A DNA stretch of 45,269 bases from Archaeoglobi archaeon (GTDB taxonomy: Archaea; Halobacteriota; Archaeoglobi; Archaeoglobales; Archaeoglobaceae). The stretch is taken from positions 1-45,269 of the forward strand of contig JAPDIW010000017.1 of NCBI GenBank assembly GCA_029259415.1, given 5' to 3'. Positions 1-10,822 of the stretch are shown here, piece after piece; the first letter of the stretch is position 1; every line of letters begins with the position of its first letter. The notes under the pieces are model-generated. The model was given only the letters and a program-made list of their open reading frames with translations, was not told where the DNA came from and did no database searches. The position numbers were made by a program, and so were the translations under genes.

Positions 1-2
1 CA

Positions 3-140
3 TTCGGATTGCGACGATTGCACCGCTATACGAGTAGATCCGTGTATAAGTATGCAGTTCTGAACGTCCTTTTGATTGGCTTGGTTGCTGCTCTGGGCTT
101 TAGGGAAAAGAAGGTACTGCAGAGATTGGCTGAGATGTGA
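3..140 (+). CDS. C-terminal end of a membrane protein, cut by the window edge
   Basis: An open frame enters at the window edge and ends at a TGA at 138-140. The roughly 45 visible residues contain one hydrophobic stretch (a likely transmembrane helix) followed by a short charged tail. The start and any other domains lie outside the window. I do not recognise the family. Its position just before other small membrane and exported proteins suggests it belongs to the same accessory region. Confidence 0.4.
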   Translation, partial: FGLRRLHRYTSRSVYKYAVLNVLLIGLVAALGFREKKVLQRLAEM

Positions 141-164
141 TTTGGTAAGGACCCTATATATTGT

Positions 165-527
165 TTGTTATTTCTTATTTTACTTCTTGTAGCTTTAGCC
201 GCCAGTCTAATCTGGATGCAGTCCGAGAACGTGAGGGTGTCGTCGAATCTGTGTGAGCCAAGAAAAGATGTTGTCCTGAAGTTTGTTGAAGATGCACTGT
301 CCAGAGATCTTGGTGTTCTAACGCTGGCGATAGACGATGAGTACTATAAGTGGTTGAAAAACAACACTGGTTGGATTGAGGTGGAATACGCAAAAGGAGA
401 CGTTAAAAAGGTTTTAATATTCAAAAGTTGGAAGACGGGTGTTATTGCCGTTCTCAGGGATGGATGGCACTGCTACGGATTAAATGGAAGTGATGTTGAT
501 GCGCTTTTCACGCAGGCCTGTCGCTGA
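165..527 (+). CDS. Small membrane-anchored protein of unknown function
   Basis: A 120-residue reading frame starts at a TTG, with no better start visible. Residues 1-18 are strongly hydrophobic and would act as a signal anchor or signal peptide. The rest is a soluble, probably extracytoplasmic domain rich in aromatic and charged residues, with three cysteines (one near residue 30, two near the C-terminus) that might form disulfides. I do not recognise the family. No obvious Shine-Dalgarno sequence supports the start, so it could shift by a few codons. Confidence 0.5.
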   Translation: MLFLILLLVALAASLIWMQSENVRVSSNLCEPRKDVVLKFVEDALSRDLGVLTLAIDDEYYKWLKNNTGWIEVEYAKGDVKKVLIFKSWKTGVIAVLRDGWHCYGLNGSDVDALFTQACR

Positions 528-590
528 TTTGATTTGGTACGGTGATAACGCTTTAACTGTCGGACTGATGAAGAAAAACAAGGTGGGAGC

Positions 591-1646
591 ATGCAAAAGC
601 GCATCGTCGTGACGATCGTGGTTGCGCATTAGTTATTCTGACCCTTCACAGCCTTTTTCCCATACAGAATTCTGCCGAACGGTTCAACCTACTGACCCAG
701 AAAGAACTGTGACACTGAGACCGGTGGTTTACTAAGCCTTCCAAATGGAAGTGTAATAGAGGTGAAGGACAGAAATCCCTTCCCGTTCGAAATTGAGCTT
801 GATGAAAATGCTAAGAACCTGAAAGTGCCGGAGAAGATCAAAGTGTACGGCTACGAACTTTACCAGAAACCGGACGAAGTGTCTGGAATAGCCAAGTCTT
901 TCGGCGTGCCCGCAGACAAACTGTATTACAATGAAGTCACGCACGCTTACCTCTATCACGATGACAAGCTGAGTTTCGAGTACTACACCCCAACAGGCTA
1001 TTTCAGGGTGGTCTTCAAGACACCAACTGGAGAAAAATTAGCTCTCCTTCAAAACTCCGGATTACTCAACTACGAATACCGAGAAATTAAAGGAGAGCCG
1101 GGAAAGTTCTTTGCCAGAGTCTTTGACGACTATCCGCCCAACATCGGCGTGATGGTAAAATCGGACGAATCCGGGGTAAAAAGTTTTGAAGGGTTGCTTC
1201 TCAAAAATGTGCGTTTTTCAAGAGCAGCTACAGAACTATGCCAGTCGAAGTTATTCCGGAAAAGCTGGCTGAACGGGTTAGGGGAGATGTCGAGGCTAAT
1301 GACTGGTACCTGAGCAACCTTGCCTTCACGAAGCTGACGATTACAAACATCTCACTCGTTTACACAATCGCTCCAGATGGTATACTGCCGGTTTACATGC
1401 TGCATGGCAAATACGTGCTTGAGTATGGTGGGATTAAAGATTCAGGAGAAATTAATGGGACAATGATTGCTGTACTATCTTAACTTTTTGAGGATTGCTA
1501 CCTTCGCCATATACAACAACCAAAACGCTGAGATGGCAAGAATTCGCCTTCCTACCGATGTATGGCTATCTACAGAAATTGAGGAAGTGAATTTTCAGCT
1601 TTTTCAGGAAAATGTTAAGTGCTTTTTCATAGCCATTAACAGATGA
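591..1646 (+). pseudogene. Frameshifted exported-protein gene
   Basis: An ATG at 591 has a good Shine-Dalgarno (AGGTGGGAG, 581-589) and opens a signal-peptide-like sequence, but the frame hits TAG at 630. The hydrophobic segment continues in another frame (626-709). Coding returns to the first frame (about 702-1313), shifts again near 1215-1238 (to the stop at 1481-1483), and a plausible continuation runs from 1488 to a TGA at 1644-1646. The translations join into one aromatic-rich extracytoplasmic protein of roughly 340 residues. Shifts come in compensating pairs. I do not recognise the family; decay of one gene explains the pattern better than several tiny genes. The final 1488-1646 piece is the least certain part. 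Confidence 0.55.
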
Positions 1647-1656
1647 GGGGATGCCG

Positions 1657-2169
1657 GTGAATAGAATGGTATGTGTCGTTGCAGCGCTGTTTGTGCTGGT
1701 TGCGAGTTTGACCTCAGTGGGGGCTCAGAGTGGTAAAATTAACGATGGACAGATCGAACCAAAAGCCGTCTATGGAGCATCAGTCAACTTCGATCCATAC
1801 ACAGTCGTCCCATATCAAAAAACGGTTGTCTATGGTGAAGTCTCTAATGGGCCGATCCCACCATCTCCTGCCTACCAGTGGTTTTTCGCCCTCCTAATCG
1901 ATGGTAGACTTGCAAAGCCGAAATTGATTGCGACGAACTTGCCGGGTAACCCAGAGATATACTACCACGCAGACTGCCAAGTTATACCGGGTGGTGCTTG
2001 GGAAATTGTCCAGAGTGGATGGAACTTCGTACAACCGTATACTTACTGGGCAAAAGTGGAAACATACGGGTACAGAGCTGGTACGTACGTTGCAAAAGCT
2101 GGAGCAGACCCTGAGCACGGTGGAACACTTTGGGGATATTTTGCAACAGCCTACTTGTATGTGGAGTAA
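1657..2169 (+). CDS. Exported protein of unknown function
   Basis: The N-terminus is a clear signal peptide: a short basic region, a hydrophobic core of about 17 residues, and a small-residue cleavage region ending in Gly-Ala-Gln. The mature part (about 145 residues) is rich in Tyr, Trp, Pro and Gly and has few charges, which suggests a beta-rich extracytoplasmic domain. I chose GTG 1657 because GAGGGG at 1645-1650 is well spaced from it; ATG 1651 directly abuts that site, and ATG 1666 is another possibility. The gene is intact, unlike the one before it, and is followed 18 bases later by a permease gene with which it may be co-transcribed. Confidence 0.6.
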   Translation: MNRMVCVVAALFVLVASLTSVGAQSGKINDGQIEPKAVYGASVNFDPYTVVPYQKTVVYGEVSNGPIPPSPAYQWFFALLIDGRLAKPKLIATNLPGNPEIYYHADCQVIPGGAWEIVQSGWNFVQPYTYWAKVETYGYRAGTYVAKAGADPEHGGTLWGYFATAYLYVE

Positions 2170-2187
2170 AAATTGGGGGTTTTAGTA

Positions 2188-3207
2188 ATGAATAAATTAT
2201 TTTTTGTTTTTAAATTAAAGAACAGCAAGAAAAGAGTCGTTTTAAATTCCCTTGTGTTATCGTTAATAGTTTCATCCTCGTTATACTATACTGAGATGCA
2301 CTCATCCTTCTTTCAAGAGAAGCTCGCTCCGTTTGTTGATTCGAAGTACGACGTGAAAGTAACCGCCCTGATAAACGACAGTCTCATGAGTGAGATCTCC
2401 AATAAAAGTTTTGTTGAGGGTGCGGTATTTGCACTTATCGCAGATCTAAAATTTAACGACAAACGCGTAGTGGGCGTTCTTGTTGATGATATTTCTAAAC
2501 TGAACATGACAAATTACAAACCAACGCTTGTCGAGGGCAATTTAAGTGGGCGTATAATAGTATCTCAGGATTTAGCAGCAAAACTCAATTTAGAGGTTGG
2601 AGATACTGTGGTGGTTTGTCCGGCATATGGCAATCAGTGCGTTGCGATGTCTGTCTCTGGTATTGCAAAGTTTCCACCCATCGCTGACATAGATGCAGCA
2701 GTGGAGTATCCTGAAGAATTTAAAAAATACTATGCCAGCAGACTCCCCACGCATGCACTTTTTGGGGAGGCGTATGTAAAACTCAAAAGTGGTGCAAGTG
2801 ATAAATATATAAGAAAAATTAGCTCTATAGCAGTTGATGTCTATCATAGAGACGAGAAGTTAAGAGACTTAAAACAGCAGGTCAATGTCGAGAAGCGCAG
2901 CCCGTTTTTTATTGTATACGTGTTTTCGTGGATTTTTGCGGCAGCAATCATAACATTCGCGGAGTCCAGTGTCTTCACGCTAAACATCAGAAAATTCAAG
3001 TTTTTGTGCGGATTTCGCTACGTTGGTACTCAGTTTGTGCTTTATATTCTGCCTCAGATTATCGTTTCCGCAGTAGCCGGTCTCGTTGTGACGAAATTAA
3101 TTTTCGGCAGGATCTCATATGAGTCTGCCGAATTACTTACGGCGTATTTATTTTTAGTGCTGATTTCAGCTTACGCAAGTGCATACATTGTAATGAGGGG
3201 GAGGTGA
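2188..3207 (+). CDS. MacB/FtsX-like ABC transporter permease
   Basis: About 339 residues with the layout of a single MacB/LolC-type permease: one N-terminal membrane helix (about residues 16-35), an extracytoplasmic domain of about 200 residues like the MacB periplasmic core, then three C-terminal helices. In the known family such proteins couple an ATPase in the cytoplasm to work on exported substrates. No ABC ATPase gene occurs next to it or anywhere else in the window, so its partner must lie elsewhere or be absent. ATG 2188 is preferred over TTG 2173 because a G-run at 2175-2179 is well spaced from it. The stop overlaps the next start (TGATG), indicating translational coupling to the regulator downstream. 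Confidence 0.6.
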   Translation: MNKLFFVFKLKNSKKRVVLNSLVLSLIVSSSLYYTEMHSSFFQEKLAPFVDSKYDVKVTALINDSLMSEISNKSFVEGAVFALIADLKFNDKRVVGVLVDDISKLNMTNYKPTLVEGNLSGRIIVSQDLAAKLNLEVGDTVVVCPAYGNQCVAMSVSGIAKFPPIADIDAAVEYPEEFKKYYASRLPTHALFGEAYVKLKSGASDKYIRKISSIAVDVYHRDEKLRDLKQQVNVEKRSPFFIVYVFSWIFAAAIITFAESSVFTLNIRKFKFLCGFRYVGTQFVLYILPQIIVSAVAGLVVTKLIFGRISYESAELLTAYLFLVLISAYASAYIVMRGR

Positions 3208-3665
3208 TGGCTACGATTCCAGGCGTAGCTGAGCTAATCATCTGGATCCCCATGCTGTGTATCCCGCCGATTTTAATTTACTACGATGCAAAGAAGAGGG
3301 GGAAGAACCCATATTTCTGGTCTTCAGCGATCTTAATTGGGCTGCTGCTGAACTACATTGCCGGACTTTTGCTGGTAGCTGCATACGTCGTGCATCGTGC
3401 TGTAAATCCGCACTTGGTGGAAACTGCAAAAGATGATTTTCTGAACCTGTTCAACTTGAATGAGAGAAAGGTAATCGAATGTTTGCTGAATCACGGTGAG
3501 ATGAATCAAAGCGAGATCGTGGCGAGAACCAAGCTCAGTCACGCAACCGTGTCAAGGATACTGGCAGATCTTGAGTCGCGAAATATCGTTGTAAGATACC
3601 GCGACGGAATGCAAAAGGTTGTCAAATTGAGCGACGACGTTAAATCGAAGTTGAAGCTGACGTAA
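3207..3665 (+). CDS. Membrane-anchored winged-helix transcriptional regulator
   Basis: The protein has two predicted membrane helices in its first 60 residues (roughly 5-26 and 38-62) separated by a short basic loop, then a winged helix-turn-helix domain (about 80-150) of the MarR/ArsR-like type, with the pattern 'NQSEIVARTKLSHATVSRIL' as its DNA-recognition region. This combination is common in archaea, where the anchored regulator is thought to act on nearby genes. The start at ATG 3207 shares its A with the stop of the permease gene, so the two are coupled. Likely targets are its own operon or the caspase-like gene downstream, whose upstream region contains inverted repeats. Confidence 0.75.
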   Translation: MATIPGVAELIIWIPMLCIPPILIYYDAKKRGKNPYFWSSAILIGLLLNYIAGLLLVAAYVVHRAVNPHLVETAKDDFLNLFNLNERKVIECLLNHGEMNQSEIVARTKLSHATVSRILADLESRNIVVRYRDGMQKVVKLSDDVKSKLKLT

Positions 3666-3790
3666 AACGCATTTTGATGATGGAAACTTACACATCGAAT
3701 CCTGCTATAGCGGAAGGATTCTGGGGGCTGAGGGGAGAATAATTTTAGCGCTATATTAATGGATTCCATAACATTAAGCAGTCTCCTTAC

Positions 3791-3836
3791 CGTTAAGCGT
3801 TTTGCTGAATGTTAAGTGATCCGCTTAACGTTCAGC
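3791..3836. promoter_or_regulatory. Overlapping inverted repeats, candidate operator
   Basis: The intergenic region contains CGTTAAGCG (3791-3799) and its exact inverse CGCTTAACG (3822-3830). It also contains GCTGAATGTTAAG (3804-3816) facing CTTAACGTTCAGC (3824-3836) with one mismatch. A further ATTAAGC lies at 3773-3779. The repeats sit just upstream of a BRE/TATA-like element (about 3866-3880), about 25 bases before the start of the caspase-like gene. This fits a multi-site operator, or an RNA hairpin if transcribed. The protein that binds is not known; the winged-helix protein encoded just upstream is an obvious candidate. Confidence 0.5.
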
Positions 3837-3865
3837 ATTTTACTGAATTTTAAAATAAATCTTAA

Positions 3866-3880
3866 CGAAAAATTTAAATA
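3866..3880 (+). promoter_or_regulatory. BRE/TATA promoter for the caspase-like gene
   Basis: CGAAA followed by an AT-rich TATA-like element (ATTTAAATA) is centred about 25 bases upstream of ATG 3902, the usual archaeal spacing to a transcription start. No Shine-Dalgarno precedes ATG 3902, so the transcript is probably leaderless. Confidence 0.5.
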
Positions 3881-3901
3881 TTTGCTATGCGATGTATTAT
3901 C

Positions 3902-5180
3902 ATGGACAGCGTGAGGTTAGGAGTGGGGTTGGTTGTACTGGCACTGCTTGTAGCCGTGCCGAATGCACTGGCAACGACAGCAGCGGTTCTATGCAGGAAT
4001 TCCAGTAAAAGCTATTACGAACGAGCACGGCTACATGCTAATCGACGTGAAAACCAACCAGACGATCCTCTACTTCAACCACACAGCCATTAACGAAAAT
4101 TTGGATGGTAAACCAGCCATAACGAAGGATGAGGCTGTTAAAATTGCCAAAGAGCTGTGTGGCGAGGATTACACGCTCATTAGGGTTACTGGAAACCCCT
4201 ACGACTACGATTTGCAGTTTGAAAGACAGATAAACGGAATAGCCATTTTCGGCGAGGACTGCTACGTTGTGGTAAACAGAATGACTGGCAAAATTGCAGC
4301 CTTCAGGAAAATGCCGGTTGAGGAGGTTAAGGTTGAGCCAGTTGTCAAAGTAAAGAAGGAAGGAGCTCTGAAGATTGCAAAAGCCAGAACTGCGAAGCTC
4401 TACATAGTCCCTGGAATCGGTACTGTGTGGTTCACTGACAGATATGCGGTTGATGCCGCGAGCGGGAAAATTTTGGGCGATGACTTTCAGAGGTTTATGG
4501 AGGAAAAGTATAGGACTACGGTGGATTTTGGGAAACTTGAGAGTGAAGTGTGGGCGAAGAAAGTTAAGTCTGAAATGAGTTCGGAAGGAGTGGATAACGA
4601 TCAGGGAGCGGTGTTCAGAGCTGACGATGACATGTGCAAGGATGATATCGATGCTGCTGAAGCGTCGATGGAAACGCCATACAGCTACTGGTACCCTTGG
4701 TCGTGGGATGATGATGCAGATGACTATGATATAGTAAGTAGCGATAGCACTGTGAACTATATTCTCGGCCATTTCGAGGCAGTTTATTATTCTGGACATG
4801 GAAACCGCTATTGCATAGCTCTGGGTGGGACTGGAAGCAGTAGTACATACTGCACTTATGATATAGCGAGCGGAAGACAAACAAGACTCTTCGTGGTCTC
4901 AGCGTGCTATGCTGGCAGAAACAGCTTTAGCGATATGCTTGTTCAGAAAGGCGTGCAGTGCGTTATTGGTGCATCTGGCGAGATAGCGGATATCCAGTAC
5001 TGGTGGGGATACTCAGCCTGTGCAGACTGGGCTGGCAGGTTCTGGGACTGGGCGACAGGGAACGTTAATGTAGCTTATCAGAAGAGTGCCCACGAGGCAA
5101 GGATTGCTGCAAACACGGCCGTTTGGAAGAAGGAGTGCAACTTTGACAGCGAGAAAGGTTACTGTGATATTTACATCTGA
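3902..5180 (+). pseudogene. Caspase-like (clan CD) exported protease gene with one frameshift
   Basis: ATG 3902 starts a convincing signal peptide (about 24 residues ending Ala-Leu-Ala), but the frame must shift near 3980-4010 to enter the long downstream frame that runs to 5180. The joined product is about 425 residues. It has a PepSY-like N-terminal region (about residues 35-150), a linker, and a C-terminal caspase/gingipain-like domain. The proposed catalytic dyad is His (CAT 4797-4799, in a Ser-Gly-His-Gly motif) and Cys (TGC 4905-4907, in a Ser-Ala-Cys-Tyr motif). Many cysteines suggest disulfides and an extracytoplasmic location. The single shift may be a real mutation, a sequencing error, or rarely a programmed event. 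The rest of the frame is undamaged, so decay is recent if real. Confidence 0.7.
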
Positions 5181-5182
5181 CC

Positions 5183-5602
5183 ATGCTACTCGAAATTTCT
5201 CTCCTTACTTTTTTGACTGTGTACGACGCTAAGATGGCGACTGTAATCTTTACTGCATCGATTGCATCACTTTACACATCGCTCCTCACTGGATTTGCAG
5301 TTATCAGGAATTTGCAGATCGTTAAGGAAAGGTTTTGGCCCGTGCTGACTGCGATGGCCGCTTTGGGAATACTAAGCGTGGGTGCGATCTGCCTGTTAGA
5401 CCTTTACACCACCAAGCATATCGTCGTATCAGTCGGTGTGATGTTCAACACCTTGCTTGGATTTATCGCAAGCTTTGCATACAGAAACTGCAAAAGATGG
5501 GAGATTATTTCCTTCTGGATAATCACCGGACTAATCTTGGATGCTGCTGCGATGCAGCTCAATATAAGGGTTTGCTTCGATCTTATGCACTTTAAAGGGT
5601 GA
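5183..5602 (+). CDS. Four-TM membrane protein linked to the caspase-like gene
   Basis: This 139-residue protein has about four hydrophobic helices and short charged loops, including a 'KERFWPV' loop after the second helix. It starts two bases after the caspase-like gene stops, so the two are almost certainly co-transcribed. A second protein of the same kind, with the matching 'EKRFLPV' loop, follows the second caspase-like copy (6696-7120), so the pair behaves as a linked unit. Function is unknown; a partner, anchor or immunity role for the protease would be inference. Confidence 0.6.
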   Translation: MLLEISLLTFLTVYDAKMATVIFTASIASLYTSLLTGFAVIRNLQIVKERFWPVLTAMAALGILSVGAICLLDLYTTKHIVVSVGVMFNTLLGFIASFAYRNCKRWEIISFWIITGLILDAAAMQLNIRVCFDLMHFKG

Positions 5603-5607
5603 TCGTA

Positions 5608-6255
5608 ATGGTAGAGAGAAAGTTTTACGCTTTAATTTCGATCTTCTCGCTTGTGGTTTTTGTTACAATTTTCCTTATACACTACTACGCCTACGTTGGC
5701 ACAGGGACGATCGAGGGAATTAAAATGGAGCTCAGCGTATACAGGTACCTCGTTGAAGTCCAAGCAAACGACAGTTGCACATTTTATCTGCCTGTTCCAA
5801 GTAAAGACAGTAGGGTTATGGAACTTAACCCCACCCTCATGAGCGCCCCTGAAAACTGGAGCTGGTCGATTGTAAACATACGTTACGGAAAGATGCTGGA
5901 GTTGAACGTAACAGGGGGCGGTACGTTTGAAGCACATCTCTATCCAGATGAACCCGTAAACACGAAACATCCAGAGTATCTGCTTGAGCCCAGATACAAC
6001 CTTAGTACGAGCAGATATACGACAAACGTTTACGGCAATTGCTCAGCAAACGTGCACGTCGAAATTGTTGGAGAGAACCATTGGTATGAATACAGAAAAT
6101 TCTACCTGTGGTCTAAAAAAGCTGTGAGATGCGAATGTTACAAGGACTGGGTCGATGCCAGCATTGAAAGGGCTGGATGGCTCGAAGTTGAAGGCAGGCT
6201 GGAAACAGAAAAGGAATGTCATGGGGAATGCCTGATGTGTGTATGGTGCCAGTAA
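5608..6255 (+). CDS. Membrane-anchored extracytoplasmic protein of unknown function
   Basis: The first 25 residues form an uncleaved-looking signal anchor. About 190 residues of extracytoplasmic domain follow, with several Asn-X-Ser/Thr sites and a Cys-rich C-terminus (seven Cys in the last 50 residues). ATG 5608 is preferred to GTG 5599 because GGTGAT (5598-5603) is positioned as its ribosome-binding site. The gene overlaps the end of the four-TM gene region, so it is probably in the same operon. A degraded relative lies at 7256-7558, sharing the patterns Thr-Phe-Tyr-Leu-Pro and Tyr-Gly-Lys-Met-Leu and an aromatic Val-His-Val segment. I do not recognise a named family. Confidence 0.55.
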   Translation: MVERKFYALISIFSLVVFVTIFLIHYYAYVGTGTIEGIKMELSVYRYLVEVQANDSCTFYLPVPSKDSRVMELNPTLMSAPENWSWSIVNIRYGKMLELNVTGGGTFEAHLYPDEPVNTKHPEYLLEPRYNLSTSRYTTNVYGNCSANVHVEIVGENHWYEYRKFYLWSKKAVRCECYKDWVDASIERAGWLEVEGRLETEKECHGECLMCVWCQ

Positions 6256-6683
6256 CTCGTATGGGGATGGTAAAGTCTCTGTGGGGGTGTGACGTATGCC
6301 AGGGATAAGATTTGGGAGATCTACAAAGATCTACATGTTGATGACTGGAATGTTGGAGCTCTCTACTCAGGGCACGGAAACAAGCCGGGTAACGGATATG
6401 ATAAAGGGGAGTGCATAGTTCTAAAAGGCACTGGAAAGGACCCTAAGGTATGGTATTGCAAAGAAAATGTCGGCAACAGCCTGCAAACACGTCTGTTTGT
6501 AATACAAGCCTGCTATGCAGCCGATAATAATCCAGATTCCCTTGCCAACGTGCTAGTGGAAAAAGGTTGCAGTGTGCGATCGGTGCAACAGGCAGCATAC
6601 ACGACTACGATGCGCTTGGTTTACCACATGCAGGGTTCTGTGATTTGGACAGAGAGGTTGGGAACTGCAACATCTATATTTAG
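6239..6683 (+). pseudogene. Fragment of a second caspase-like protease gene
   Basis: A relative of the gene at 3902-5180 can be read through at least two frameshifts. 'VYGASNSYGDGKVSVGV' is in one frame (6239-6289) and the main part follows in the frame open from 6289. This keeps the Ser-Gly-His-Gly motif (His codon 6373-6375) and the Gln-Ala-Cys-Tyr motif (Cys codon 6511-6513). A shift near 6575-6590 then restores an Ala-Ile-Gly-Ala-Thr-Gly segment and the ending Cys-Asn-Ile-Tyr-Ile before TAG 6681-6683, which mirrors the intact copy's Cys-Asp-Ile-Tyr-Ile end. About 40 residues present in the first copy are missing near the C-terminus. The N-terminal half and signal peptide are gone. Confidence 0.65.
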
Positions 6684-6695
6684 GGGGAAAATCTG

Positions 6696-7120
6696 ATGCT
6701 CTTCAATTTTTTAATTCCCTCAATCCCACTCCCATTTCCTATTTACATAGTTCTGCTGCCCTCATCGTCGTCAACACGCTTTTCCTGCTGGCATATTCGC
6801 AGCTGTTTAAGGTGGAAATCTATGAGAAGAGATTCTTACCCGTTACTCTCTTGCTCACACTAACCGATTTTGCTTCGCTTATATTTCTTGCTTTGGCATC
6901 TCCGATACCGTATCTGCTTTACAGGCTGTTTTCAGTGTCAGCGGACCTGACATCTTACCTTCTGCTTGTTTTCATCTGCGTAATAGAGGGGGCAGTTTTA
7001 GCTCGGGTATCGTCTCTCGCTCTCGTTAAAGCAAATAAGAAGGTTCTTGCAGCCTCCTGGATTTTCGCCAACACTGCTTCCACCACCGCCTACATGCTTC
7101 TGGGAGGTGTGTCCCCATGA
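6696..7120 (+). pseudogene. Frameshifted second copy of the four-TM protein gene
   Basis: ATG 6696 opens a hydrophobic protein whose frame breaks near 6740-6760. The continuation ('ALIVVNTLFLLAYSQLF' onward) is in another frame and runs to the TGA at 7118-7120. The joined product would have about four membrane helices and shares the 'EKRFLPV' loop and general layout with the intact protein at 5183-5602. Like that one, it directly follows a caspase-like gene. A shorter protein starting at GTG 6812 could still be made. Confidence 0.55.
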
Positions 7121-7245
7121 TTGGCTTGGCAGATTGGTTTGGGGATGTTGAAGGAGTTAATATGATGGAGATGGGTAATAGTGTGAAGTGTAAAGCTGGC
7201 GGCGAGATAGCGATGTGGCAGAGGACAGCCCACGAGGAGAGTTAA
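7117..7245 (+). pseudogene. C-terminal fragment of a third caspase-like gene
   Basis: A 42-codon frame starts at ATG 7117, overlapping the preceding stop. It contains Ala-Asp-Trp and the pattern 'AMWQRTAHEES', which match the Ala-Asp-Trp and 'AYQKSAHEAR' stretch near the C-terminus of the intact copy at 3902-5180. This is the very segment missing from the second copy. It ends early at TAA 7243-7245. It is either a third remnant or a displaced piece of the second copy. Confidence 0.4.
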
Positions 7246-7255
7246 TGCTACTACG

Positions 7256-7558
7256 CTTCCGTATATCAAGGTTTATGGGGTGGGGGTGAAGAATGCAACT
7301 TTCTACCTCCCGTGGAAGGACGATGCAAGATTCCTCTGCCGGAGGATGTATCGGTTGTGGACACCGAATATGGTAAGATGCTGAAGATGAAGAAGAGAAA
7401 ATGCTTCAGCTACGATAGCGTAGTTATGTTAAATGCTATGCTACGGAAGTGTCCATGTCAGCGTTGCGGTTAGAGCGGATAACTACTGGTGGGAGAATGT
7501 GTGGTGGTACAAGAGATGGCATCGAATGGCTATAGTGATAGGATTTGGATCTGCATAG
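7256..7558 (+). pseudogene. Remnant related to the anchored protein at 5608-6255
   Basis: Across several frames this stretch encodes Asn-Ala-Thr-Phe-Tyr-Leu-Pro, then Glu-Tyr-Gly-Lys-Met-Leu-Lys, then 'SVHVSVAVRADNYWW' and a Trp-rich segment ending at TAG 7556-7558. These occur in the same order as matching segments of the protein at 5608-6255. No frame is open throughout and no start remains, so it is a degraded copy. It fills the otherwise gene-free gap before the isomerase gene. Confidence 0.5.
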
Positions 7559-7602
7559 GGCATTGTGCCAAAATTTTTAACCTTTCAACAAAAGATTAAA
7601 CC

Positions 7603-8544
7603 ATGCAGGAAGTCCTCGAAGCAGCAGAAAAAATCAAGAGCATGGAAGTGAGGGGGGCGGCGAGAATTGCCAAATTTGCCGCTGAAATCCTGATGAAATT
7701 TGCTGAGAAAGCTTCTCCCGAGAAGTTTGATGAAGAGATGAAGTGGGCTGCAGACACCCTTCTCAACACACGCCCAACGGCGGTAAGCCTATACAATGCG
7801 ATAAACTACGTGATGCGTTACAGCGGTGAAAGCGTTGATGAGAAGAGGAAGAGTGTTATAAGGAGGGCGAAGGAGTTCATTAACTGGGTCGAGACCGCGC
7901 AGAGGAAAATCGGTGAGATTGGGGAGAAAAGGATAAAGGACGGTTACACCGTAATGACCCACTGCAACTCCTCCGCTGCCTTGTCAGTGATAAAGAGAGC
8001 TCATGAGAACGGAAAGGACATTAGGGTCATAGCCACCGAATCGAGGCCAAGGTGGCAGGGGCACATAACAGCTAGGCAATTAAGGGAGGCAGGGATTGAT
8101 GTGACTTTAATCGTTGACTCTGCTGTAAGATATTTCATCGACGACGTGGACTGTGTTGTGGTTGGAGCTGACACGATAACCGCCAATGGTGCTTTGATAA
8201 ACAAAATCGGCACTTCACAAATTGCTCTTGCAGCAAAGGAGGCGAGAGTCCCGTTTATGGTTGCCGCTGAAACGTACAAGTTCAGCCCCAAAACGCTCTT
8301 CGGGGAACTTGTTGTTATTGAAGAAAGAGATGCGAGAGAAGTCGCTCCAGAGGAATTGCTGAAGCTTGGAGTGAAGGTGAGAAATCCGGCTTTCGATGTT
8401 ACTCCGAGGGACTACATTGACGTTATTATCACGGAAATCGGTGCAATCCCGCCTGAAATGGCCTATGTAGTGATTACTGAGAGGTTGGGCTACGCCGGAA
8501 TAGAAGAGGAGGAAATAACGCTGAATTCAAGGCACTTCGATTAG
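7603..8544 (+). CDS. Ribose-1,5-bisphosphate isomerase (eIF-2B-like family)
   Basis: This enzyme of the archaeal AMP/pentose bisphosphate pathway converts ribose 1,5-bisphosphate to ribulose 1,5-bisphosphate, the substrate of type III RuBisCO. The 313-residue protein belongs to the eIF-2B alpha/beta/delta-like family. Its Thr-His-Cys-Asn-Ser motif places Cys121 and the Val-Gly-Ala-Asp motif places Asp190, the same 69-residue spacing as the catalytic Cys and Asp of the Thermococcus kodakarensis enzyme (Cys133, Asp202). Many databases call such proteins translation initiation factor aIF-2BII, which is probably wrong. A TATA-like element (about 7574-7580) lies about 25 bases upstream of the ATG, so the message is probably leaderless. 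AMP phosphorylase and RuBisCO are not in the window. Confidence 0.88.
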   Translation: MQEVLEAAEKIKSMEVRGAARIAKFAAEILMKFAEKASPEKFDEEMKWAADTLLNTRPTAVSLYNAINYVMRYSGESVDEKRKSVIRRAKEFINWVETAQRKIGEIGEKRIKDGYTVMTHCNSSAALSVIKRAHENGKDIRVIATESRPRWQGHITARQLREAGIDVTLIVDSAVRYFIDDVDCVVVGADTITANGALINKIGTSQIALAAKEARVPFMVAAETYKFSPKTLFGELVVIEERDAREVAPEELLKLGVKVRNPAFDVTPRDYIDVIITEIGAIPPEMAYVVITERLGYAGIEEEEITLNSRHFD

Positions 8545-8591
8545 TTATTTTTGATTGCGAAAACTTTTTGACCCCACCACGAATTTCTAAT

Positions 8592-9437
8592 GTGAACAAG
8601 ATCCGGGCGTTAATTGAAGTAACCAAGCCGAAGCAGACCTTCCTTTTGATGATTACTTTCTTAGTCTCCTATATCGTCGCCCGCGGAGGGGCTGACTTCA
8701 ATTTCCTCATTGCTACATTCTCAATGTGGCTAGCCATTTCCGGGACGACAGCAATCAACATGTGGCTCGACAGGGACATTGATTCCATAATGCCCCGAAC
8801 GAAGCAAAGACCCGTCCCAGCAGGAATTTTGAAACCCTCAGAATGTGCTGCCTATGGTGTAGGAATTTTTGCTATCGGCCAGGCACTTGGATTCCTGATA
8901 AGCTTTGAGTTCGCTCTTGTAGTTTTCCTCGGCCTCTTCTTTGACATCGTCGTTTACACAATTCTTCTGAAGAGGAGAAGTCCCTACTCCATCGTCTTGG
9001 GTGGGTTTGCGGGTGCGATGCCTGCTCTGGCAGGTTGGGTTGCGGTGCAGGGCTTCACCCTGCCGGGATTCATAATTGCCGCTATCGTTCTTCTCTGGAT
9101 CCCATCTCACATCTGGTACATTTCAATGCACTACGAAGAGGACTACAGGCTGGCCAATATTCCAATGTATCCTCTTGTGGTGGGAATGGAGAGAGCTTCG
9201 TGGATGATAGTTCTCGCCACAGCTGCGATGCTCGTCTTAGCTGCAAGCCTCTACATCTTACTACCGCTTGGAGTTTTCTATCTCGTCATATCCACATCTG
9301 CGGTGGCATTTTTCCTTTTAAAGGCGATAAAGTTTGCTCTCTCTCCCGACAGAGTTAAGGCAAGGAAAATGTACAAGCTTGCGAGCATGACTCTTGGCTT
9401 AGTATACTTTTCCCTTCTTCTGGGTGTATTTTTATAA
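8592..9437 (+). CDS. Heme O synthase-like UbiA prenyltransferase
   Basis: An integral membrane protein of about 281 residues with eight to nine predicted helices. The first polyprenyl-diphosphate/Mg site reads Asn-x3-Asp-x3-Asp (in 'NMWLDRDIDSIMPRT'). The second cytoplasmic loop has 'EEDYRLANIPMYP', close to the corresponding loop of protoheme IX farnesyltransferase (CtaB/CyoE/COX10). These features place it with heme O synthases rather than menaquinone or geranylgeranylglyceryl-phosphate enzymes. I chose GTG 8592 because the homologous region begins just after it; TTG 8568 adds eight residues of no clear value. Use of heme O in a strict anaerobe would be unexpected, so the true substrate may be a modified heme or a quinone ring. 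Confidence 0.75.
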   Translation: MNKIRALIEVTKPKQTFLLMITFLVSYIVARGGADFNFLIATFSMWLAISGTTAINMWLDRDIDSIMPRTKQRPVPAGILKPSECAAYGVGIFAIGQALGFLISFEFALVVFLGLFFDIVVYTILLKRRSPYSIVLGGFAGAMPALAGWVAVQGFTLPGFIIAAIVLLWIPSHIWYISMHYEEDYRLANIPMYPLVVGMERASWMIVLATAAMLVLAASLYILLPLGVFYLVISTSAVAFFLLKAIKFALSPDRVKARKMYKLASMTLGLVYFSLLLGVFL

Positions 9438-9460
9438 ACAAGGCCTTCTTACTTAAGCCA

Positions 9461-10822
9461 ATGTGGAGCATTCTTAAGGCGGTCCGTGAAAATCCGGAGA
9501 TCCTTTACGAGTCTCAAAAAAGAAGAGGGTTGAGTGTTGAAATCGTTGATAGGGCAGTAGAACTTGACAGGAAGCGGAGAGAGAAGCTTAAAGAAGTTAA
9601 TCAGCTAAGAAAGCGGAGAAACGAGCTTGCACGCAAGGTGAAGGAGGCGAAGGGTGAGGAGAGAGCGAAAATTATAGAGGAGGCAAAGACCATTTCAGAA
9701 GAGGTTAAAAGGGCGGAGCAGGAGCTTAAAAAGCTTGAGACTGGGCTTGAGGAGGTTCTGCTTTCAATTCCTAACATAATTCACGAGACCGTTCCAGTGG
9801 GGAAGGACGATACTGAGAACGTGCCGATAAAGTACTGGGGGAAGGCGAAGGTTTACTTTGAAGACGTCGATTCATTTGTCGAGATGACGCAAGGAATGGC
9901 GGAGTATGAAGTGACCGATGTAAAGCCTGTTGGCCATGCTGACGCTGTTGAAATTTTCGGCTGGGCTGATCTTGAGAGAGCGGCGAAGGTGGCTGGAGCG
10001 AGGTTTTACTACCTGCTGAACGACCTCGTCTGGCTTGATTTTGCTTTGATGATGTACGCTCTCGATTATCTCAAGAAGACGGGATTTACAATCGTTAATC
10101 CACCCTACATGATGCGAAGAGAGGCCTACAGTGGAGTTACGGCCTTCAGCGACTTTGAAGAGGTGATATACAAGGTTGAGGACGAGGACCTCTACCTCAT
10201 AGCGACGAGCGAGCATCCTATCGCTGCCATGCACATGAAGGAAGTTCTGGAGGAGCGAGAGCTACCTCTGCTTTATGCCGGAGTCTCTCCCTGCTTCAGA
10301 AAAGAGGCTGGAGCGCATGGAAAGGACACGAAGGGGATATTCAGAGTCCACCAGTTCAACAAGGTGGAGCAGTTCGTCTTCTCTCTGCCGGAACAAAGCT
10401 GGGACTGGCATGAAAAACTTTTGGAAAATGTGGAGAAGCTGTGGCAGGGGTTAGGCATTCCGTACAGAATCGTGAACATCTGCACCGGAGATTTGGGGAT
10501 TGTAGCGGCCAAAAAATATGACCTTGAGGCGTGGATGCCTGCTCAGGGCAAATACAGAGAGATGGTCTCCTGCAGCAACTGCACGGACTGGCAGAGCTAC
10601 AGACTCAACATAAGGTTTGCAGAGGAGAGAGGAAAGCCGAGCAAGGGGTTTGTCCACACTCTAAACTCAACAGCCATCGCCACGACAAGAGCCATCACAG
10701 CCATCATCGAGAACTTCCAGCAGGAAGATGGAAGGGTTGAAATTCCGAAAGTGCTGAGAAAATATCTCGAGCCCATTGAATCCGCCCCCAAGGACTTCAT
10801 CCTGCCAGCAAAAACTCAGTAG
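9461..10822 (+). CDS. serS: Seryl-tRNA synthetase
   Basis: Charges tRNA-Ser with serine. The 453-residue protein is the common (bacterial-type) class II enzyme, not the rare methanogen type. A long coiled-coil tRNA-binding arm occupies about residues 25-105. The catalytic core includes Thr-Ser-Glu-His-Pro (serine pocket), motif 2 around 'GVSPCFRKEAG', and motif 3 near the C-terminus ('GRVEIPKVLRKYL'). Length is normal. Its 3' end overlaps by seven bases the end of the convergent M24 peptidase gene. Confidence 0.95.
   Translation: MWSILKAVRENPEILYESQKRRGLSVEIVDRAVELDRKRREKLKEVNQLRKRRNELARKVKEAKGEERAKIIEEAKTISEEVKRAEQELKKLETGLEEVLLSIPNIIHETVPVGKDDTENVPIKYWGKAKVYFEDVDSFVEMTQGMAEYEVTDVKPVGHADAVEIFGWADLERAAKVAGARFYYLLNDLVWLDFALMMYALDYLKKTGFTIVNPPYMMRREAYSGVTAFSDFEEVIYKVEDEDLYLIATSEHPIAAMHMKEVLEERELPLLYAGVSPCFRKEAGAHGKDTKGIFRVHQFNKVEQFVFSLPEQSWDWHEKLLENVEKLWQGLGIPYRIVNICTGDLGIVAAKKYDLEAWMPAQGKYREMVSCSNCTDWQSYRLNIRFAEERGKPSKGFVHTLNSTAIATTRAITAIIENFQQEDGRVEIPKVLRKYLEPIESAPKDFILPAKTQ

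Follow-up and report, generated by a model that had tools for sequence, protein, structure and literature searches.

A decaying tandem array that pairs a predicted exported, clan CD-like protease with a four-TM protein in an Archaeoglobi genome

The question raised by this locus is what a tandem array of a protease-like gene, a small membrane protein gene and an anchored protein gene might do, and what the array is made of now that it is falling apart. The DNA analysed, here called the window, is the whole 45,269-nucleotide stretch from the genome of a heat-loving Archaeoglobi archaeon. The original prediction described co-duplicated tandem copies of the three genes in progressive decay. HMMs trained on relatives from other genomes, with no window sequence among them, recover the main copies far above ten shuffled windows used as a control (top score 8.7 bits), so the similarity between copies is above background; the third-copy pieces are real but weak. 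From 5′ to 3′ the order is protease 1, four-TM a, anchored protein, truncated protease 2, frameshifted four-TM b, a fragment of protease 3 and a fragment of a second anchored gene (Table 1). The array arose by duplication and is now decaying through truncations and frameshifts, and no copy in this genome is obviously intact. It occupies a site where three related genomes carry another gene, namely G001, which we take to be an A. fulgidus-like genome, and G002 and G003 (Archaeoglobus sp. UBA230); homology to the G001 flank starts at 7570. A search of positions 1-9500 of the window gave no Rfam match.

Table 1. Features of the array and its upstream element (positions in the window).
Feature	Position	Strand	Evidence
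Promoter/operator-like element upstream of protease copy 1	3769..3880	+	Alignment with island promoters
Signal-peptide segment of protease copy 1, out of frame with the remainder	3903..3986	+	Hydropathy, G002 comparison
Protease copy 1: YcdB/PepSY-like propeptide and clan CD-like catalytic domain (predicted)	3963..5180	+	Profile 708 bits, C25 profile match
Putative four-TM protein, copy a	5183..5602	+	Profile 75.6 bits, low-confidence model
Signal-anchored protein with extracytoplasmic domain (predicted)	5599..6255	+	Profile 71 and 65 bits
Protease copy 2: 5′-truncated, internally deleted, frameshifted	6289..6696	+	Profile pieces, DNA match
Putative four-TM protein, copy b, frameshifted	6696..7120	+	Profile in two frames, DNA alignment
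Third protease copy, fragment	7117..7245	+	Residue and DNA match to G003
Second anchored-protein copy, remnant	7256..7558	+	Weak profile, DNA match

The HMM match of protease copy 1 runs over 3981-5177 and its His/Cys dyad is kept (codons 4797-4799 and 4905-4907), but even this gene is frameshifted: the signal peptide (MDSVRLGVGLVVLALLVAVPNALA; segment MDSVRLGVGLVVLALLVAVPNALATTA, hydropathy peak 2.37) is split from the body by one extra base near 3990 relative to G002. Downstream of the shift the ORF bears no sign of relaxed selection, with a dN/dS of 0.08 against G002 and a non-synonymous distance to G003 about equal to that of G002 to G003, and the frameshift would therefore be recent or an assembly error. 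Copy 2 retains the GHG and QACYA motifs, so the dyad motifs do survive in the first two copies as claimed. It is matched at 6355-6573 (68.6 bits) and 6636-6680 (16.9 bits), a further piece at 6558-6614 (8.2 bits) not rising above shuffled windows; it has lost the signal peptide, the propeptide and some 40 internal residues, keeps the exact C-terminus, and matches in its DNA copy 2 of G001 (E 4e-33). The third piece was not recovered by the relatives-only protease profile; it is recognized by GGEIAMWQRTAHE, identical at 12 of 13 residues to the G003 protease, and by DNA identical to G003 at 36 of 46 positions (E 4e-5, in a small database). Four-TM copy a is matched at 5198-5575 and copy b in two frames, at 6696-6773 (23.7 bits) and 6752-7117 (132 bits), with a 7-base deletion near 6775 in the DNA alignment with relatives that would be harder to attribute to sequencing error than the copy-1 shift. 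The anchored gene is matched at 5608-6213, and its remnant at 7339-7410 (19.2 bits) and 7448-7525 (6.6 bits), with 33 of 41 bases shared with G003 (E 1e-4).

Such pairs do occur elsewhere in the Archaeoglobales, in other Archaeoglobus genomes and in one other genus. Intact versions in the same order are present in G002 and G003, which both read protease, four-TM a, anchored, four-TM b; in G002 a 39-residue C-terminal remnant of a second protease lies just 5′ of four-TM b, in the order of the window. G001 has two protease-TM pairs, with the propeptide of the first damaged, and G024, from the other genus, has the protease and the TM protein only. The window genome itself carries a second decayed locus of the G024 type, on contig C1, with a broken protease, an intact four-TM gene, a two-TM ArsR-type regulator and an exported protein. 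Within the family set of 55 genomes, the window genome included, the protease is found in four genomes of the genus (again with the window genome) and one of the other genus; a wider sample of 394 phylum genomes yields the protease family in only 5. An alignment search of the 394 adds only two weak matches, in two genomes of other families, and these were discarded as full relatives because only the propeptide is covered. Single-protein searches of genome contig and viral contig collections gave no match, an alignment query of the same collections matched only Archaeoglobus sp. UBA230, and no viral contig in that search carries the protease.

What kind of protease is this? The label “caspase-like” is right at the level of the clan (clan CD-like), but by profile comparison the domain is nearer to Peptidase_C25 (gingipains) than to C14. 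With hhalign, the catalytic domain matches Peptidase_C25 (PF01364) at probability 91 and E 1e-6, with the GHG His and the Cys in register over 74 columns and a GAS/GxS segment following, and a repeat of the comparison scored 48.5 versus a maximum of 25.7 in 100 column shuffles. Peptidase_C14 (caspase/metacaspase, PF00656) likewise has a His/Cys dyad behind hydrophobic strands, but here hhalign gives a probability of 25 with the alignment outside the dyad, the best score is 14.1 bits versus a gathering cut-off of 21.4, and the protease, unlike C14, would be exported behind a YcdB-like propeptide. DUF6345, tried as a homologue, found no support in profile comparison. Among the profiles compared (C25, C14 and DUF6345, with C11 addressed by Pfam only), C25 is thus the nearest to what looks like a clan CD-like catalytic domain. 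The protease nonetheless differs from C25 in falling below the Pfam cut-off (hmmscan of the window and relatives returned no PF01364 match), in having another propeptide, in being shorter and in being paired with a four-TM gene. His and Cys are invariant in six protease relatives, together with six further cysteines. Intact relatives have a signal peptide, which supports the claim of export, and a DUF4901/YcdB-like propeptide (two of them score 24.9 and 24.6 bits, short of the PF16244 cut-off of 27, with E about 3e-5), and the protease is hence predicted to be a zymogen made of signal peptide, YcdB/PepSY-like propeptide and catalytic domain. None of the protease, four-TM and anchored proteins reaches the cut-off of a curated family, and PDB sequence searches found no credible relative; since the AlphaFold2 model from two sequences was poor (pLDDT 38), a clan CD fold is only a sequence-based prediction.

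The supposed functional link between protease and four-TM protein is supported by five genomes in which the two genes keep the same order and spacing. In every genome with the pair, only a few bases separate the protease stop from the start of the four-TM gene, or the two genes overlap; in the window four-TM a starts 2 bases past the copy-1 stop. Ten four-TM sequences align as a single family with an invariant A and W, and they diverge far faster than the protease. Because hydropathy gives two to four strong segments per protein and the structure model with its four long helices is of low confidence, four TM segments are plausible only. Four-TM genes are intact where the protease is lost or broken, as in copy b of G002 and G003 and on contig C1 of the window genome, and a dN/dS of 0.14 for the b gene between G002 and G003 indicates that such orphans are kept under purifying selection. 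The anchored protein has one N-terminal TM segment and its gene overlaps four-TM a (5599/5602); not being found beside the G024 protease or the G001 copies, it loses the place in the core module that it was first given.

The history of the locus is mosaic. In the core genes flanking the array the window genome is nearest to G001 (92-93%), then G003 (88-90%), then G002 (83-87%); in the copy-1 protease the order is instead G002 (85%), G003 (65%) and G001 (46%). Four-fold degenerate sites shared with G002 number 82/134 in the copy-1 protease versus 45/148 and 32/114 in two core genes (p 2e-9); for four-TM a and the anchored gene together the figure is 16/57 (p 3e-5). The window-G002 DNA match spans 3793-5196, starting in the promoter and ending 14 bases into the four-TM gene. 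Since the G002-like sites and the DNA match stop at the protease/four-TM junction, the copy-1 protease and its promoter were recently exchanged with a distant Archaeoglobus lineage without the partner. Such a swap, together with the fast divergence of the four-TM protein, argues against a tight one-to-one interaction. The promoter is not private to the protease. Upstream of copy 1, TTAAC/GTTAA repeats lead into an A/T-rich TATA-like box, and the region can be aligned to the promoters of five further genes for exported proteins in the islands of G002 and G003. A 30-base core has three copies in G002 and two in G003, always in these islands and nowhere else in the 55 genomes. The window copy has diverged by a one-base deletion and is not matched by the core pattern. 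The shared element points to a local regulon of exported proteins.

The reading that we lean towards, with somewhat better than even confidence, is that of a surface protease of gingipain type, exported and held inactive by its propeptide, whose membrane partner would retain it, activate it or hold it in check. Synthesized behind a Sec signal peptide and a YcdB/PepSY-like propeptide, the protease would cross the membrane and fold with its conserved cysteines probably in disulfides; removal of the propeptide would give the active enzyme, which would cut proteins at or near the cell surface through its gingipain-type His/Cys dyad. The four-TM protein, from the adjacent cistron, would sit in the membrane and retain, activate or restrain the protease, the anchored protein would be an accessory, possibly a substrate or receptor, and the module would ride in recombining islands whose exported-protein genes share a local promoter.

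The main rival, still a live one, gives the partner the role of immunity: the exported protease would attack competing archaea, the four-TM protein would protect the producer's own membrane or surface proteins, and orphan four-TM genes would be immunity against neighbours. Patchy distribution, tandem duplication and horizontal protease swapping all fit such a scheme, and in descriptions of polymorphic toxins caspase-like peptidases figure as processing domains as well as toxin domains (PMC3482391). The persistence of four-TM genes beside lost or broken proteases also fits, although the hand-made tally behind it (four-TM intact in 8/9, protease full-length and intact in 3/9, p 0.05) is small, barely significant, drawn from non-independent cases and confounded by a protease gene 3 times longer. 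On the other side, exchange of the protease without its partner would break a toxin-immunity pair, no known defence family is matched, and polymorphic toxin systems tend to be lacking in hyperthermophiles (PMC3482391). We consider this reading unlikely, and a shade more doubtful still is its fullest form, a hitherto unreported system of antagonism or kin discrimination among hyperthermophilic archaea with a gingipain-like protease as weapon, four-TM immunity, allele swapping and orphan immunity genes. Less probable again is plain nutrition, with an extracellular protease digesting environmental protein, as other clan CD exoenzymes of archaea do, and the four-TM protein as an export or anchoring helper. 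True C25 proteins do occur in 22/148 genomes of the phylum, and exported clan CD proteases are known in the genus from globupain, a peptidase C11 from an Archaeoglobus MAG (PMC10315481); yet a scavenging enzyme sits poorly with so narrow and patchy a distribution, with the strict coupling to a four-TM gene that evolves fast, and with a promoter common, in one island, to other exported proteins with no assigned function. The link to defence or lysis first floated for this locus fares worst. A triggered protease that kills the cell from outside the membrane would suit a protease with a small membrane protein by loose analogy to effector pairs only, and we hold it very improbable: the signal peptide would place the action outside, the three core proteins match neither PADLOC models nor PHROGs families (a neighbouring regulator matched PADLOC only via its winged helix), and none of the viral contigs searched carries the protease.

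Among known systems globupain is close, being likewise an exported clan CD cysteine protease and a zymogen of the same genus, properties predicted here from sequence; unlike globupain, the protease has no Pfam C11 match, a separation made by Pfam only, and the text consulted on globupain mentions no four-TM partner (PMC10315481). Open-access papers yielded no description of the protease-four-TM pair or of the locus. The protease and the four-TM protein make up a small pair of families that lack a curated name, range very narrowly and, in recombining islands, have a promoter element in common with other exported proteins. Should the four-TM protein control the protease, the pair would offer a simple model of how archaea govern a surface protease at the membrane; should it confer immunity, the pair would be an antagonism system in organisms said to be mostly without polymorphic toxins (PMC3482391). 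Both readings can be tested on the intact copies of G002, G003 and G024.

One gene behind the shared promoter core encodes a DUF6345 exported protein. DUF6345 proteins, with a separate PepSY-like gene (PF19872), are encoded alongside the protease in the G002 island, behind the shared promoter element, and have GHG and Cys motifs, but profile comparison shows no similarity to the protease; the literature searches turned up no paper on DUF6345. In the window, 582-1491 is a broken copy of the gene that follows the DUF6345 gene in G002 (L025 1931-2832), and the DUF6345 gene itself is missing nearby; the neighbouring exported-protein cluster is therefore decaying too. Positions 1651-3665 hold an operon-like set without homologues in the related islands examined, namely genes for a 172-aa protein that is exported, for one of 344 aa with three or more TM segments and for a two-TM winged-helix protein that is DUF7343/MarR-like. 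Immediately 3′ of the module, Archaeoglobus sp. UBA230 carries three tandem paralogues of an exported protein of about 400 aa that has no assigned family (L026:7530-11286). DUF6345 members elsewhere adjoin ArsR-type two-TM regulators, and such winged-helix proteins recur beside DUF6345 or protease genes (L045, L048, L027:8438-8902, L029:4492-5019), which suggests a shared kind of membrane-linked regulation.
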